NCBI GenBank assembly: GCA_001789205.1
Contig: MFYT01000019.1
Location: 3,157-67,156, forward strand
Direction: 5' to 3'
Source of the DNA: Candidatus Raymondbacteria bacterium RIFOXYA2_FULL_49_16
GTDB lineage: Bacteria > Fibrobacterota > OXYB2-FULL-49-7 > XYB2-FULL-49-35
Length of the DNA stretch: 64,000 bases
Part shown: in pieces, positions 16,922-25,098 of the stretch
Numbering within the stretch: position 1 is the stretch's first letter
Layout of the letters: each line of letters begins with the position of its first letter
Notes under the pieces: generated by a model
What the model was told of the DNA's origin: nothing
Databases searched by the model: none
What the model saw: only the letters and a program-made list of their open reading frames with translations
Made by a program: the position numbers and the translations under genes

Positions 16922-17269
16922 ATGGATATTACCACTTATTCCGTCGGCGGATACGCCGTCATACTTATTAGCGAATCAGTCCGCAAGTACGAGGATGTTG
17001 TTTTTATCAAAAAAAAGATCAATGAGATTGTGGACAATGGCCAGATGTTTATCGCCATCAACCTTTCCAAAGTCGATTATATGCACAGCTTTTTCATCAA
17101 GATACTCACGTCCAGCTACAAGAAGCTGGTGAAAAGCGGCGGTGATATTGTGCTCATCGGGCCCAATGAATTCATCAGGAACCTCATCAATCTTCTCAAT
17201 ATCCATAAATACATCACTGTCTTCGAGAACGACGAAAGCTTCAGGGAATTCGTCAAGACCCATACCTAG
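16922..17269 (+). CDS. Divergent STAS-domain protein
   Basis: The 115-residue single STAS domain has the fold pattern of anti-sigma factor antagonists: VGGYAVILIS, then MFIAINLSKVDYMHSFFIKIL, then GGDIVLIGPN, then an ending of HKYITVFENDESFREF. The usual DSSG phosphorylation loop reads MHSFFI, so only one Ser remains and the Asp and Gly are lost. Phosphorylation-based switching may not apply. No ribosome site is obvious before ATG 16922. It is the first of four STAS-type genes within 8 kb, which suggests a partner-switching network. Confidence 0.75.
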   Translation: MDITTYSVGGYAVILISESVRKYEDVVFIKKKINEIVDNGQMFIAINLSKVDYMHSFFIKILTSSYKKLVKSGGDIVLIGPNEFIRNLINLLNIHKYITVFENDESFREFVKTHT

Positions 17270-17290
17270 GCGCCCGGCATATTTTCCATG

Positions 17291-17965
17291 TCAATTCCAC
17301 GACCCTAGCGCTTTTTCACGCGAGGGGTAGATGGTCACAAAAGGCGATGAAATATGTTTTTCGCACGCCTGGAGGGTCGCGGCGTCGGAACAGAAGATGC
17401 GTACGCGTCCCTTTGACTGTTCAACGATTTTCTGGAGGCGCTTCACGATAGGTTCAGTGATTGTGCATGCGGATACAAACCTGCTGATATCTATGAGGGT
17501 TTTGAATTCGTCGTTGAGAATGGTGTCGAGTGTGGTGATGTAGGTTTCGCAGTCTGTGTTTTCAGCTGGAAAGTCGCTGAATTTGAACACGCCCACGTTC
17601 TGAAAAAGGTCAAAATCCAGCTTAAGTGAAAGGGTCTCTTTTTTTTGACGCTCGGGCTGCTTATACGGTATCGAGGGCGCGTGCACTGTGAAGAAATTGA
17701 CCAGACTGGTAGTTTCAAGCACCTTCAGATTGTCTTCGGACACATTATCGAGAATTATGGCCCTGCCGTTTTCTTCGGCCATGTTGTGCAACTTAATGAG
17801 CGCGCCAATGGTCATACTATTCAGGAGAATAAGGTCCGCAAGATCTATCCGCATGTTGCCGCTTTTCGATGAAGTCAGAAACTGAACGCCCATTTCGATT
17901 AATTCATTAGAATTGTAAAAGGTTATTTCCGCGGGCAGTTTGTAACTGAATTCGTTATCTGGCAT
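17291..17965 (-). CDS. Tandem STAS-like domain protein
   Basis: The 224-residue protein reads as two STAS-like halves. Residues 1-105 contain RIDLADLILLNSMTIGALIKL, and residues 115-224 contain LIDISRFVSACTITEPIVKRL then RVRIFCSDAATLQA. Each keeps the strand-loop-helix core, but neither has the canonical SSG motif. AAGGAT precedes ATG 17965. It is convergent with the preceding STAS gene and divergent from the SpoVG pair. A scaffold or non-phosphorylated antagonist role is plausible. Assignment rests on pattern and neighbourhood. Confidence 0.6.
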   Translation of the reverse strand: MPDNEFSYKLPAEITFYNSNELIEMGVQFLTSSKSGNMRIDLADLILLNSMTIGALIKLHNMAEENGRAIILDNVSEDNLKVLETTSLVNFFTVHAPSIPYKQPERQKKETLSLKLDFDLFQNVGVFKFSDFPAENTDCETYITTLDTILNDEFKTLIDISRFVSACTITEPIVKRLQKIVEQSKGRVRIFCSDAATLQACEKHISSPFVTIYPSREKALGSWN

Positions 17966-18189
17966 GGAGTTATCCTTTATTAAACAGATTATTAATTTAG
18001 TTAATACCCGTGTTTTATGTCAAAATATTTGCAGATGTGACAGGTTTTGTCATATCTGGGTGTTATATTTTTAGTGCGATCTTCGAAACGATGAGCGCAA
18101 GAACAAACAAGTTCTTTGATATTCCAGTCCGGTCCGTCCCATAAGCAAAACAATTGTATTACGTATATACCAAACTTAGGAGTTTTATT

Positions 18190-18465
18190 ATGAAGACGAA
18201 CATCGAACTTACCGCCATTAAAGTGTATCCTTTCAAACAAGCAAAGGGAAAGATCAAAGGGTTTGTGCAGGTTGTGCTGAACAACGCGCTCAAGCTCAAC
18301 GGTCTTAAAATCGTGGAAGGGGAAAACGGCCTCTTCCTGAGTTATCCGTCTGAAAAGGGAAAGGATGGCAACTACTACAGCATCTACAATCCCATAACAC
18401 GGGAGAGCAGAACCGAGATCCAGGACGCTGTCCTGGCGAATTACGAGGCAGCGGTTTCGGCCTAA
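18190..18465 (+). CDS. spoVG: SpoVG family nucleic-acid-binding protein (copy 1)
   Basis: The start is ATG 18190 (TTAGGAG upstream), giving 91 residues. The protein follows SpoVG closely: ELTAIKVYPF, FVQVVLNNALKLNGLKIVEG, NGLFLSYPSEKGKDGNYY, NPITRESRTEIQDAVLANYE. SpoVG proteins are small DNA/RNA-binding regulators first known from Bacillus sporulation and later from spirochaetes and staphylococci. It is first of five co-directional genes reaching the sigma-54 activator. A 6-7 bp hairpin overlaps its stop codon and may tune read-through to the next gene. Confidence 0.9.
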   Translation: MKTNIELTAIKVYPFKQAKGKIKGFVQVVLNNALKLNGLKIVEGENGLFLSYPSEKGKDGNYYSIYNPITRESRTEIQDAVLANYEAAVSA

Positions 18466-18479
18466 AAGCGCACGCTTTT
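18464..18479 (+). terminator. Small hairpin at the spoVG copy 1 stop codon
   Basis: AAAAGC (18464-18469), loop GCAC, GCTTTT (18474-18479): a compact hairpin ending in four T's that overlaps the stop codon. It is too weak to be a confident terminator, but it could act as a partial terminator or mRNA 3' stabiliser, so that copy 1 is made in excess of downstream genes. Confidence 0.35.
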
Positions 18480-18567
18480 ATCGGAAACCAGTGAAAAGCG
18501 GGACGGGCCGGGTTGGAACCAAAGAACCAATGAAAAAACCATATGTAACGACCAAGGAGACGATATC

Positions 18568-18858
18568 ATGGAAAACGCAGTACTCGATATTACCGAACTC
18601 AGGATTTATCCAACAAAAAAAGAATCCGCTGTCAGGGCATTCTGCACAGCCACCTTCAACCACGCGCTATGCGTATCAGGCATCAGGATCAAGGAGGGAA
18701 AAAAGGGCGTCTATGTCGCCTTTCCCCTTTCCACAGGCGCAAATGGCAAACGGCATCCGATTGTGTTTCCCGTGACCGGCGAAGCCAGGCGCGAGATTTC
18801 CAACAGGATTTTGGCCACGTACGTCATCAACCACTGTGTTGATGATTATACGCTGTGA
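18568..18858 (+). CDS. SpoVG family protein (copy 2, divergent)
   Basis: This 96-residue paralogue of the preceding gene shows the same order of elements: DITELRIYPT, ATFNHALCVSGIRIKEG, KGVYVAFPLSTGANGKRHP, FPVTGEARREISNRILATY. It then has a C-terminal acidic extension. It is more diverged, with extra Cys residues, which argues for a separate binding specificity and not recent duplication. AAGGAG sits 8 bases before ATG 18568. It follows copy 1 by 102 bases and precedes the STAS gene by 30 bases. Confidence 0.82.
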   Translation: MENAVLDITELRIYPTKKESAVRAFCTATFNHALCVSGIRIKEGKKGVYVAFPLSTGANGKRHPIVFPVTGEARREISNRILATYVINHCVDDYTL

Positions 18859-18888
18859 AATATATCTTATACCTTAGGAGGGCATGCC

Positions 18889-19251
18889 ATGTCAAACCTG
18901 AGGATTGTCGAACATAAGACCGGGCCAGCGGGTAATCTGATTGTCCTGCGAATAGAGGGGAGCATTGATCAGGCAAACATCGACCAGCTTCAAAAAACCA
19001 TTGCACGGGTGGTGGCCGGGGGGTGCGCCAGGATCATCGCCAACTGTGAAAAGCTCTCCTTTATCTCCAGCTCGGGCATTGGGGTCTTTATCGACCTGAA
19101 GGAGGTTTTGGGAGAGAAAAATGGCGAACTGGCCTTTGCCGCGGTCACGTCCAAATTCCTGAACATCTTTCATAAGGTCGGCGTGGACGAGCTCTTTACC
19201 ATGTTTCCCGGAGAAAAAGAGGCCCTCAGCCATTTTAACCAGGGCGCTTAG
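18889..19251 (+). CDS. Canonical anti-sigma factor antagonist (STAS, RsbV/SpoIIAA-like)
   Basis: The 120-residue STAS domain has an intact phosphorylation loop, FISSSGIGVFIDL (about residues 63-75). This is the segment whose Ser is phosphorylated by RsbW-type kinases. The rest of the fold is typical: VLRIEGSIDQANIDQL, CARIIANCEKLSF, AFAAVTSKFLNIFHKVG. TAGGAGG lies 8 bases before ATG 18889. It is followed 6 bases later by the RsbW-like gene, the classical antagonist/kinase pairing. It would bind and sequester its partner when dephosphorylated. Confidence 0.92.
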   Translation: MSNLRIVEHKTGPAGNLIVLRIEGSIDQANIDQLQKTIARVVAGGCARIIANCEKLSFISSSGIGVFIDLKEVLGEKNGELAFAAVTSKFLNIFHKVGVDELFTMFPGEKEALSHFNQGA

Positions 19252-19257
19252 CGTTTC

Positions 19258-19656
19258 ATGAAGCGGTCATTTCCCTATTCACTCGAATCCCTTGCGGCGG
19301 TGCGTCAGCTTGCCGCTGATTTCTGCTCCAACAGCGCCATCAACGAATTGGTGTGCGGTGAAATGGAGCTTGCGCTCAACGAGGCATGCACCCATATCAT
19401 CAGCCACCGCGGCAGCAGCACCCAGCCGGACGAAACCTTCCACGTGACTCTTGCCACTGTGGGCGCCATGCTGGTCGCGTCTGTATCATTTCCCGGCAAA
19501 CGATACAATTTTATGCAACCAACCAATACGGCGCGCGCCAAAGGACCGGCCATGAGTCTCTTTGCCGCCTATGTGACCCGGAAAATGGTGGATATGGTCA
19601 TGTATAATTATCTTCCCGGCAATATTAACGAGCTCCGGCTCATCAAGAACCTGTAA
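19258..19656 (+). CDS. RsbW-like HATPase protein with degenerate ATP site
   Basis: The 132-residue protein lies in the RsbW position behind an antagonist gene and follows the HATPase_c_2 pattern (SLESLAAVRQLAADF, MELALNEACTHIISH). The N-box Asn, normally in EA-TN-H, is His here. The Asp-Gly motif that would contact adenine reads VSFPGKRYN, so two hallmark ATP-site elements are missing. The last motif is only loosely kept (GPAMSLFAAYV). It may bind the STAS protein without kinase activity. The gap to the sigma-54 activator is 9 bases. Confidence 0.7.
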   Translation: MKRSFPYSLESLAAVRQLAADFCSNSAINELVCGEMELALNEACTHIISHRGSSTQPDETFHVTLATVGAMLVASVSFPGKRYNFMQPTNTARAKGPAMSLFAAYVTRKMVDMVMYNYLPGNINELRLIKNL

Positions 19657-19665
19657 GGAGCGCGC

Positions 19666-21159
19666 GTGCCTGTTACTGAAAAAAAACAGCTCGAAAGCCT
19701 GTTGCAGGCAAGCGCGGCGCTCCATTCATCCATAGATCTGCCTGAACTTTTACGTAAAATGATCGACCTCATTTCCGGGGTTCTCGAATGTTCTGGCAGT
19801 TCCATCTATGTTTTTGACCAGGCAAAGGGCGAACTAGTGCTTGAGGCTGATACCGCGGGCAAGGACCTCAATCTCAAGATCGAGGCTGGACCCCGGGTAT
19901 ACGCCGCAGGCGTAGGCGTGCCGGTCCATGTGCGCGATTCCCGGACCGACAAGCGGTGGGAGGCGTTGGCCCAGGGCGATGAAGGACCGCAGAGCGTGCT
20001 CTGTGTTCCCATGCAGTTCAACGGCCAGTCCGTAGGGGTCATTGAGGCCACGGATAAAAAGGATGGCGGGCAGTTCGACTACGATGATCTGCAGCTCTTC
20101 CAGGGTTTCGCTAATATCTGCGGGGCGGCCATTATAAATGCGCGGCGTTTTTCCGCGGTCTCGTCCGAAAACAGGAAGCTCAAGGAGACACTCGCGGGCA
20201 GCGTGGTCAACCTGATCGGCAATTCAACGGCCGTGCAGAAAATAACCAGTGTTATCAAAAAAGTGGCGCATGTCGATTCCATTGTGCTCATTACCGGCGA
20301 GAGCGGCACGGGCAAGGAGATCATTGCCCGGAGCATCCATGCGCTTTCGGACCGCAAAGACAAGCCCTTTATTCCGGTCAACTGCGGTGCTGTGCCAGAG
20401 AACCTCCTTGAGAGCGAGCTCTTTGGCCACGAAAAAGGCGCTTTTACAGGCGCAGACCGCCAGCGCGCGGGCATTTTCGAGGAGGCCGAGGGCGGCACAG
20501 TGTTTCTCGACGAGATCGGCGAGACCTCGCTCACTACCCAGGTGAAGCTGCTCAGGGTGCTCCAGGAGGGCGCCTTCAAACGCGTGGGCTCTAACCGGGA
20601 AATAAAGTCGAATGTGCGTGTCATCTCAGCCACCAACCGGAAGCTTGAAGAGCTGGTCGCTGAAAAAAAATTCAGGGAAGACCTCTATTACCGGATCAAT
20701 GTTGTGGCCATTCCTGTGCCACCCCTGCGCGAGCGCATGGACGATCTGCCGGTGCTGGCCGGGTATTTTTTAAAGAAATCGTGCGAAAAGCTCAAAAAGA
20801 ACAGTGCGGGCATTTCACCAGCGGTCATGCGCCTCTTTTTTTCCTATGAATGGAAGGGAAACGTGCGCGAATTGGAAAATACCATTGAATCCGCGGTTGC
20901 CATGAGTGAAGGTTCCTTCCTTGAACCCGGCGACCTTCCCGTCCGCTTTTCAAGCGCACTGAGCTCTGCGCCTGGATTCATGTCGCTTGCCCATCTCACG
21001 TACGACGAGGCAAAGGACGAGTTTGAAAAGCAGTATTTTTCAGGCCTGCTCCAGCTCCACAATGGCGATGTGCACAAGGCCGCTGAACAGTCGAAGGTGA
21101 GTGAGAAATCGATTGTACGCAGACGCCAGAGATTTGATATTTCCAAGAACAAAGAGTGA
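19666..21159 (+). CDS. GAF-domain sigma-54-dependent transcriptional activator
   Basis: The 497-residue enhancer-binding protein has an N-terminal GAF sensor (about 20-165) and an AAA+ domain (about 183-410) with Walker A GESGTGKE (211-218), the sigma-54 contact loop GAFTGA (258-263) and Walker B VFLDEIG. The C-terminal Fis-type helix-turn-helix spans about 465-490. It activates RpoN promoters after a small-molecule or partner signal at GAF. GTG 19666 follows TAAGGAG. It ends the SpoVG-STAS-RsbW-like run, so its activity may be gated by that switch. Confidence 0.95.
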   Translation: MPVTEKKQLESLLQASAALHSSIDLPELLRKMIDLISGVLECSGSSIYVFDQAKGELVLEADTAGKDLNLKIEAGPRVYAAGVGVPVHVRDSRTDKRWEALAQGDEGPQSVLCVPMQFNGQSVGVIEATDKKDGGQFDYDDLQLFQGFANICGAAIINARRFSAVSSENRKLKETLAGSVVNLIGNSTAVQKITSVIKKVAHVDSIVLITGESGTGKEIIARSIHALSDRKDKPFIPVNCGAVPENLLESELFGHEKGAFTGADRQRAGIFEEAEGGTVFLDEIGETSLTTQVKLLRVLQEGAFKRVGSNREIKSNVRVISATNRKLEELVAEKKFREDLYYRINVVAIPVPPLRERMDDLPVLAGYFLKKSCEKLKKNSAGISPAVMRLFFSYEWKGNVRELENTIESAVAMSEGSFLEPGDLPVRFSSALSSAPGFMSLAHLTYDEAKDEFEKQYFSGLLQLHNGDVHKAAEQSKVSEKSIVRRRQRFDISKNKE

Positions 21160-24720: not shown

Positions 24721-25098
24721 ATGACAATGAACTATGAGACAATGACAGTGACCATGCGTGAAATCGGGTATCTTTCGGTAGTGGAATTCATCGGAAAACT
24801 CGACAACAGGAACCTGAATAGTGTCAATCGTCTTTGCATCCACCTGATGACAAAACAGGTCAGTGAATTTGTTTTTGATCTTTCAAAGGTCCTGGATATC
24901 TCAAACGCGGTCATGACAATGTTTGTCAATTTCGGCAGGAAAATCCGTGAAGCCGGAGGCAGGTTCTTCATTATGAAACTGAATCCGCACATTGCTGATA
25001 AAATCGCCAGGGTAAAGGAACACGAGGACAAAATCGGCTATTTTGCCGACGAAGAAGAGGCGGAGGATTTTATCCTTCACGACAACAAGTATCTGTAA
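24721..25098 (+). CDS. STAS-domain protein (copy with altered phosphorylation loop)
   Basis: The start is ATG 24721, 5 bases after GGAGG, giving 125 residues. A GTG at 24691 lacks support. The STAS core is clear: YLSVVEFIGKLDNRNLNSVNR, FVFDLSKVLDISNAVMTMF, GRFFIMKLNPHIADKI. The loop that is usually DSSG reads DISNA, so one Ser remains but the Gly is lost. It is followed by a truncated response-regulator reading frame. It belongs to the local set of STAS proteins but sits apart from the SpoVG run. Confidence 0.78.
   Translation: MTMNYETMTVTMREIGYLSVVEFIGKLDNRNLNSVNRLCIHLMTKQVSEFVFDLSKVLDISNAVMTMFVNFGRKIREAGGRFFIMKLNPHIADKIARVKEHEDKIGYFADEEEAEDFILHDNKYL

Follow-up and report, generated by a model that had tools for sequence, protein, structure and literature searches.

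A duplicated RsbV-RsbW pair with a degenerate kinase half lies upstream of a sigma-54 activator and may form a NifL-like switch behind a recA-type promoter

What could a partner-switch gene pair control when its STAS protein keeps the phosphorylation site, its RsbW-like protein looks kinase-dead, and the gene that directly follows encodes a sigma-54 activator? The question is raised by a locus of Candidatus Raymondbacteria bacterium RIFOXYA2_FULL_49_16, a deep-branching bacterium with a genome of 5.43 Mb (G000), of which we analysed a stretch of 64,000 nucleotides (the window; contig MFYT01000019.1, here C19). Based on our data we propose, tentatively and at somewhat less than an even chance, that an RsbV-RsbW pair was duplicated upstream of the activator gene, that the kinase-dead RsbW copy is a NifL-like anti-activator released by its STAS partner, and that the genes are served by a recA-type promoter. 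Sequence supports the duplication, the loss of ATP-site residues, the tight coupling of the genes and the shared promoter element. The genes, called from an open reading frame (ORF) listing, Pfam cut-offs and reading of the sequence, are the following.

18190 to 18465, forward strand: SpoVG1, 91 amino acids (PF04026, 80.6 bits)
18568 to 18858, forward strand: SpoVG2, 96 amino acids (PF04026, 67.6 bits)
18889 to 19251, forward strand: STAS2, RsbV/SpoIIAA-like (STAS, 68.2 bits; phosphosite FISSSGIG, S62)
19258 to 19656, forward strand: RsbW-like GHKL protein, 132 amino acids (HATPase_c_2, 36.4 bits, cut-off 27.4)
19666 to 21159, forward strand: GAF-AAA+-Fis sigma-54 activator, 497 amino acids (Sigma54_activat, 246.6 bits; GAF, 51.3 bits)

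SpoVG1 starts at the ATG at 18190 and not at the TTG at 18154. The five genes are co-directional from 18190 to 21159, as a sequence-only reading of this DNA had described, but the tightness that it ascribed to the whole run does not extend beyond the last three genes: as the successive gaps are 102, 30, 6 and 9 bp, only STAS2, the RsbW-like gene and the activator gene make up a truly tight unit. These three genes also lie in one common reading frame.

The RsbW-like protein was aligned with its paralogue on contig C58 of the same genome and with 18 other relatives. His46 stands in place of the N-box Asn and Phe78 in place of the G1 Asp. The missing N-box Asn and adenine-contact Asp of the sequence-only reading are therefore borne out, and the loss extends to both glycines of the G2 box, where SGMGVFFIRK has become MSLFAAYVTRK. 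The catalytic-base Glu42 and the NEACT core are retained. The ATP-site residues are intact in the C58 paralogue and in 17 of the 18 other relatives, the exception being a remote fusion protein on C95 that retains the N-box Asn and has no G1/G2 signature. Apart from this fusion the losses are confined to the window branch while STAS2 keeps its serine site, which speaks for our proposal. A simple frameshift as the source of the loss can be ruled out, as the other forward frames (ORF list and reading) do not restore the lost motif. In structure matching the C58 RsbW found RsbW and SpoIIAB structures, and the same kind of comparison matched no structure to the window protein. A partner-switch serine kinase has intact N, G1 and G2 boxes, which this protein does not; judged by these residues it appears to be kinase-dead with its ATP site lost. 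An RsbW-like protein of this kind, next to a phosphorylatable STAS protein and directly upstream of a sigma-54 activator, is indeed what the locus holds.

The origin of the pair is seen from its paralogues. STAS2 has a phosphorylatable serine before glycine and matches SpoIIAA structures. The tree of RsbW domains places the window protein next to the C58 RsbW as its sister (support 100/99), on a branch about three times longer (1.74 vs 0.6), and in a tree of 23 STAS domains of this genome STAS2, on a short branch, is sister to the C58 STAS protein (support 92/88); the tree program flagged long branches in both trees. The C58 locus, which the sequence-only reading had missed, is a standard switch in which a Cache-HAMP-SpoIIE phosphatase, STAS and RsbW are followed by a FapA-family gene, and the STAS and RsbW genes stand in the same order and closely spaced at both loci. 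As both members are sister to the adjacent C58 genes, the trees and the alignment indicate that the window pair is a duplicated RsbV-RsbW couple in which the kinase copy has lost its ATP-site residues. The long branch and the loss of all ATP motifs, in a gene that is private to its lineage, could also mark a duplicated kinase copy that is losing its function and has no present role. Against such decay, the frame is open, the HATPase_c_2 score is still above the cut-off, the GC content at the codon positions is like that of the neighbouring genes (GC3, at third positions, 0.667), Glu42 and the NEACT core are kept, and STAS2 is well conserved; we consider decay improbable.

The identity of the terminal gene, which the sequence-only reading had called a GAF-AAA-Fis sigma-54 activator, is confirmed by Pfam scores and motifs that agree. 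Walker A (GESGTGKE), GAFTGA and Walker B are read in its sequence, and the Fis-type helix-turn-helix (HTH_8) is weakly scored at 13.2 bits (cut-off 22), so that the call of this domain rests partly on sequence reading. With an RpoN encoded in the genome, the protein has the make-up of a bacterial enhancer-binding protein. Its architecture is NifA-type, and nifA is the top equivalog model at 384 bits, below its cut-off of 529. The activator matches 27 places in its own genome, itself included, and it is the only one of these found beside a single-domain RsbW-like gene. Elsewhere in the genome a REC-STAS protein is encoded downstream of a REC-AAA activator (C85), an arrangement that differs from that of the window, and on C28 (4877-8850) a Ser/Thr protein kinase gene lies upstream of one for an FHA-GAF-AAA-Fis sigma-54 activator.

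Upstream of the run, the sequence-only reading had missed a recA-type promoter, which overlaps a dyad.

18032 to 18058, forward strand: 27-bp dyad CAGATGTGACAGGTTTTGTCATATCTG, between the divergent tandem-STAS gene and SpoVG1
18047 to 18069, forward strand: promoter element TTGTCA-N11-TATATT directed toward SpoVG1, in the same layout as before recA

A search of the whole genome with the dyad pattern, allowing up to three mismatches, gave exactly eight sites, and the backward pattern used as a control gave none. Beyond the window the sites are at C31:26798, C73:28392, C97:106670, C97:81984, C77:31757, C21:117199 and C64:27197. The spacer GGTTT is identical at all eight although it was left free in the search, and a TATATT-like sequence, outside the search pattern, follows the dyads at a fixed distance. 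TTGTCR-N11-TAnnnT is exact at six of the eight sites and its spacing is equal at every one; each element reads toward its downstream gene. These genes are recA, yifB/comM, BrnT (a toxin), an ORF6N protein, an AAA_14/DUF4143 ATPase (with a small ORF intervening before it), two IS91-type transposases and SpoVG1. The viral contigs searched hold no copy of the dyad.

The consensus of the LexA-independent recA P1 promoter of mycobacteria is tTGTCRgtg-8 nt-TannnT (PMC5656591), and before both recA and the SpoVG1 run we find TTGTCR-N11-TAnnnT, a RecA-NDp-like layout. A separate GAAC-N4-GTTC box also precedes recA, and the same box precedes the lexA gene of C78, making it a candidate LexA box; as recA has both the dyad promoter and this box, it appears to be under two controls, as in mycobacteria. 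The genome has two lexA genes, on C78 and C8, whose candidate boxes differ: one is preceded by TGAACGCTTGTTCA, to which a box upstream of recA is similar, and the other by an E. coli-like stretch, TGTATATACTGTATA. The dyad itself is absent before both lexA genes, and we reject it as a LexA box. It is also unlikely to be the enhancer of the activator, given its place before recA and its overlap with a -35-like position. From their sequence, the eight sites may form a LexA-independent recA-type regulon, and the pairing of yifB with recA would also fit a competence regulon. Our results suggest that this promoter class exists outside Actinobacteria.

Taken together, these elements lead us to infer the following mechanism. 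A duplicated pair of STAS protein and GHKL anti-factor would have been placed upstream of the GAF-AAA-Fis activator, and the RsbW copy, having lost ATP binding, would act purely as a binding partner. It would keep the activator inactive through its AAA+ or GAF part, as NifL does NifA, until unphosphorylated STAS2 draws it off and frees the activator. STAS2 would gain and lose its phosphate in trans, in the simplest case through the intact C58 RsbW kinase and SpoIIE phosphatase. The run from SpoVG1 to the activator would be transcribed by read-through from the recA-like promoter and, as the promoter element is the same as that of recA, would probably be induced together with recA, upon DNA damage or in competence. 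That all of this holds, so that a partner switch was rebuilt for a sigma-54 activator with a NifL-like kinase-dead RsbW, a STAS antagonist set by a paralogous locus, and recA co-induction from a LexA-independent damage promoter, we regard as possible and on the whole unlikely.

Several observations weigh against the proposed anti-activation. We compared 167 genomes, this one included, of the phylum, which we take to be Fibrobacterota; many of the phylum's genomes belong to one large genus (g30) and measure 2-4 Mb. Conserved gene order, which had been named beforehand as the point on which the earlier idea would stand or fall, fails in this phylum: the order of the window is found in none of the 166 other genomes, and as the gene set occurs in no other genome searched, comparative support for a functional link is absent. 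The usual binding partners of RsbW and its kin are sigma factors. Matches to sigma-54 -24/-12 promoter sites in the window are at chance level. A possible weak hairpin (z -0.72) follows SpoVG1, and together with the 102-bp gap it makes transcription of the switch genes from this promoter less certain. A structure model of the STAS2-RsbW-like read-through chain (single sequence, TAG read as Gln) had a mean predicted local distance difference test score (pLDDT) of 39.7 and was discarded.

The search for relatives gives the same picture of a private locus. In the 167 genomes the window RsbW-like protein matches only its C58 paralogue and a remote protein of G097 (22% identity), whose gene has transporter genes and a STAS gene as neighbours, not an activator gene. 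Relatives of the C58 RsbW occur in 86 of the 167 genomes, and around the 29 RsbW relatives that were fetched no activator gene was detected up to a distance of 1.5 kb. For the GAF domain of the activator the phylum holds no orthologue, the best match reaching 28%, and STAS or RsbW genes adjoin none of the proteins that carry it. Scans of genome collections, with the single RsbW-like protein and with a two-sequence alignment, found no relative, such scans reaching close relatives only; the plasmids searched for RsbW-like relatives gave nothing, and the viral contigs gave AAA+ fragments only, with no relatives of RsbW, SpoVG2 or STAS. The arrangement of STAS, RsbW and activator looks private to this lineage, in which it may still be a functional unit.

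This lack of conservation also bears on a different reading, in which the STAS2/RsbW-like pair serves a different target (a cyclase, a sigma-70-family factor or some further STAS target) and the activator gene only happens to lie downstream in the operon. Known RsbW proteins bind sigma factors or targets encoded elsewhere, and the STAS network of this genome is wide, with 57 STAS domain hits, the highest number in a sample of 60 genomes of the phylum (the next two have 45 each). Yet the spacing of 6 and 9 bp in one reading direction speaks against it, and no sigma-factor gene was recognised among the neighbouring ORFs, which were inspected by eye with no model scan. Moreover, what follows the sister pair on C58 is a FapA-family gene, so that only the window copy has the activator. 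Another target is a serious alternative that we nevertheless find rather unlikely.

Whether the two SpoVG genes belong to the switch is a separate matter. The sequence-only reading had suggested that the switch gates two nucleic-acid-binding proteins, but for SpoVG there is only proximity. This genome has six SpoVG genes, whereas its relatives mostly have one or two. Both window proteins belong to PF04026 and both are under the NF009749 equivalog cut-off of 108 bits. SpoVG1 and the housekeeping-type SpoVG of C73 share 39% identity; the C73 gene adjoins one that we take to be ispE. SpoVG2 is 62-73% identical to the copies on C47, C94 and C96, which lie near recombination-type genes; those of C47 and C94 adjoin DUF932 and PD-(D/E)XK exonuclease genes, and their modules share blocks of 85-86% DNA identity and look mobile or phage-derived. 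C47 and C94 also encode a protein of 741-743 amino acids with a DxDGD motif, the C47 copy of which matches no Pfam or PHROG family. As its closest kin stand in such exonuclease/DUF932 modules, SpoVG2 was probably recruited separately from an element-like module. One may go further and take the entire cluster as assembled by chance or by mobile elements, with SpoVG2 from a module, SpoVG1 and the switch genes as separate units, and no hub. The kinship of SpoVG2, the 102-bp gap after SpoVG1 and a gene set that is not conserved agree with this, but SpoVG2 is 30 bp from STAS2 on the same strand, and GC3 is similar across the genes, leaving such an assembly with little probability. A hub that joins switch and SpoVG is, in our view, an over-interpretation, and the SpoVG link is weak.

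If anti-activation by the RsbW copy holds, it joins STAS/RsbW partner switching with GHKL anti-activation of AAA+ sigma-54 activators, which are normally separate, and it means that a kinase, once duplicated, can give up ATP binding and turn into a pure binding switch. Should the functional link not hold, what remains is a clear example of partner-switch duplication in which the kinase has degenerated.

Further STAS genes surround the run. Two had been placed just upstream by the sequence-only reading; both are present, but that for the tandem-STAS protein runs in the reverse direction.

16922 to 17269, forward strand: STAS-a, single STAS protein (Pfam STAS, 41.8 bits; own-genome STAS tree)
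17291 to 17965, reverse strand: tandem STAS-like protein, 224 amino acids (one STAS domain above cut-off, 38.9 bits)

STAS-a has MHSFFI where the conserved Ser-Gly phosphosite would be; it is a neighbour and at most a possible member of the operon. The second STAS-like half of the 224-residue protein was judged by eye, the search of the genome for STAS domains giving one match there; this protein has no canonical phosphosite, and its gene is divergent from SpoVG1. A fourth STAS gene (24721-25098), 3.5 kb downstream of the activator, also has no canonical Ser-Gly phosphosite. Among the STAS hits of the genome are several tandem-STAS proteins. On C95 (5271-6893) an RsbW-like gene, a STAS-HATPase fusion and a STAS gene are consecutive, and several relatives repeat the C95 pairing, in which a STAS gene is accompanied, at a distance of about 800 bp, by a longer STAS frame.

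How, then, does the locus compare with known systems? The sequence-only reading knew of no described system of this composition, and none was found in the literature that we searched. Its recA-type promoter shares with mycobacterial recA P1/PafBC (RecA-NDp) the TTGTCR, the 11-nt gap and the TAnnnT before recA, with a separate LexA-type box (PMC5656591); RecA-NDp is non-palindromic (PMC6789036), whereas the element described here lies within a 27-bp palindrome, and the likeness is one of sequence only. With RsbV-RsbW and SpoIIAA-SpoIIAB the pair shares a phosphosite STAS protein and an adjacent HATPase_c_2 GHKL protein, in the order of the C58 pair; unlike them it has lost the kinase motifs, has no adjacent phosphatase or sigma factor that we recognised by eye among the neighbouring ORFs, and precedes a sigma-54 activator. 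The Syp system of Vibrio fischeri likewise combines, in one locus, a transcription activator with a STAS protein and an RsbW-type regulator, but SypE is an active kinase and SypA acts downstream and not on SypG (PMC10120452), and SypG is a response regulator whereas the window activator is a GAF protein. In NifL-NifA, too, the gene of a GAF-AAA-Fis sigma-54 activator adjoins that of a GHKL protein which is not a kinase. The GHKL/DHp part of NifL binds the AAA+ domain of NifA and has no phosphotransferase activity (PMC12998174), and in K. pneumoniae NifL this part shows no ATP/ADP-binding character (PMC9866876), a precedent which shows that a GHKL protein can hold such an activator without phosphotransfer. 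The window protein differs in that it has 132 amino acids, consists of an RsbW-type HATPase_c_2 domain with neither PAS nor DHp, and has a STAS partner, and its activator is below the NifA equivalog cut-off. Nor is a kinase-free RsbW in itself new: in the SigF switch of M. smegmatis RsbW1 is devoid of kinase activity, and it is a second RsbW by which the STAS protein is phosphorylated (PMC7693655), so that binding and kinase roles are split between RsbW paralogues there as we propose here, although the target there is the sigma factor SigF and not a sigma-54 activator.

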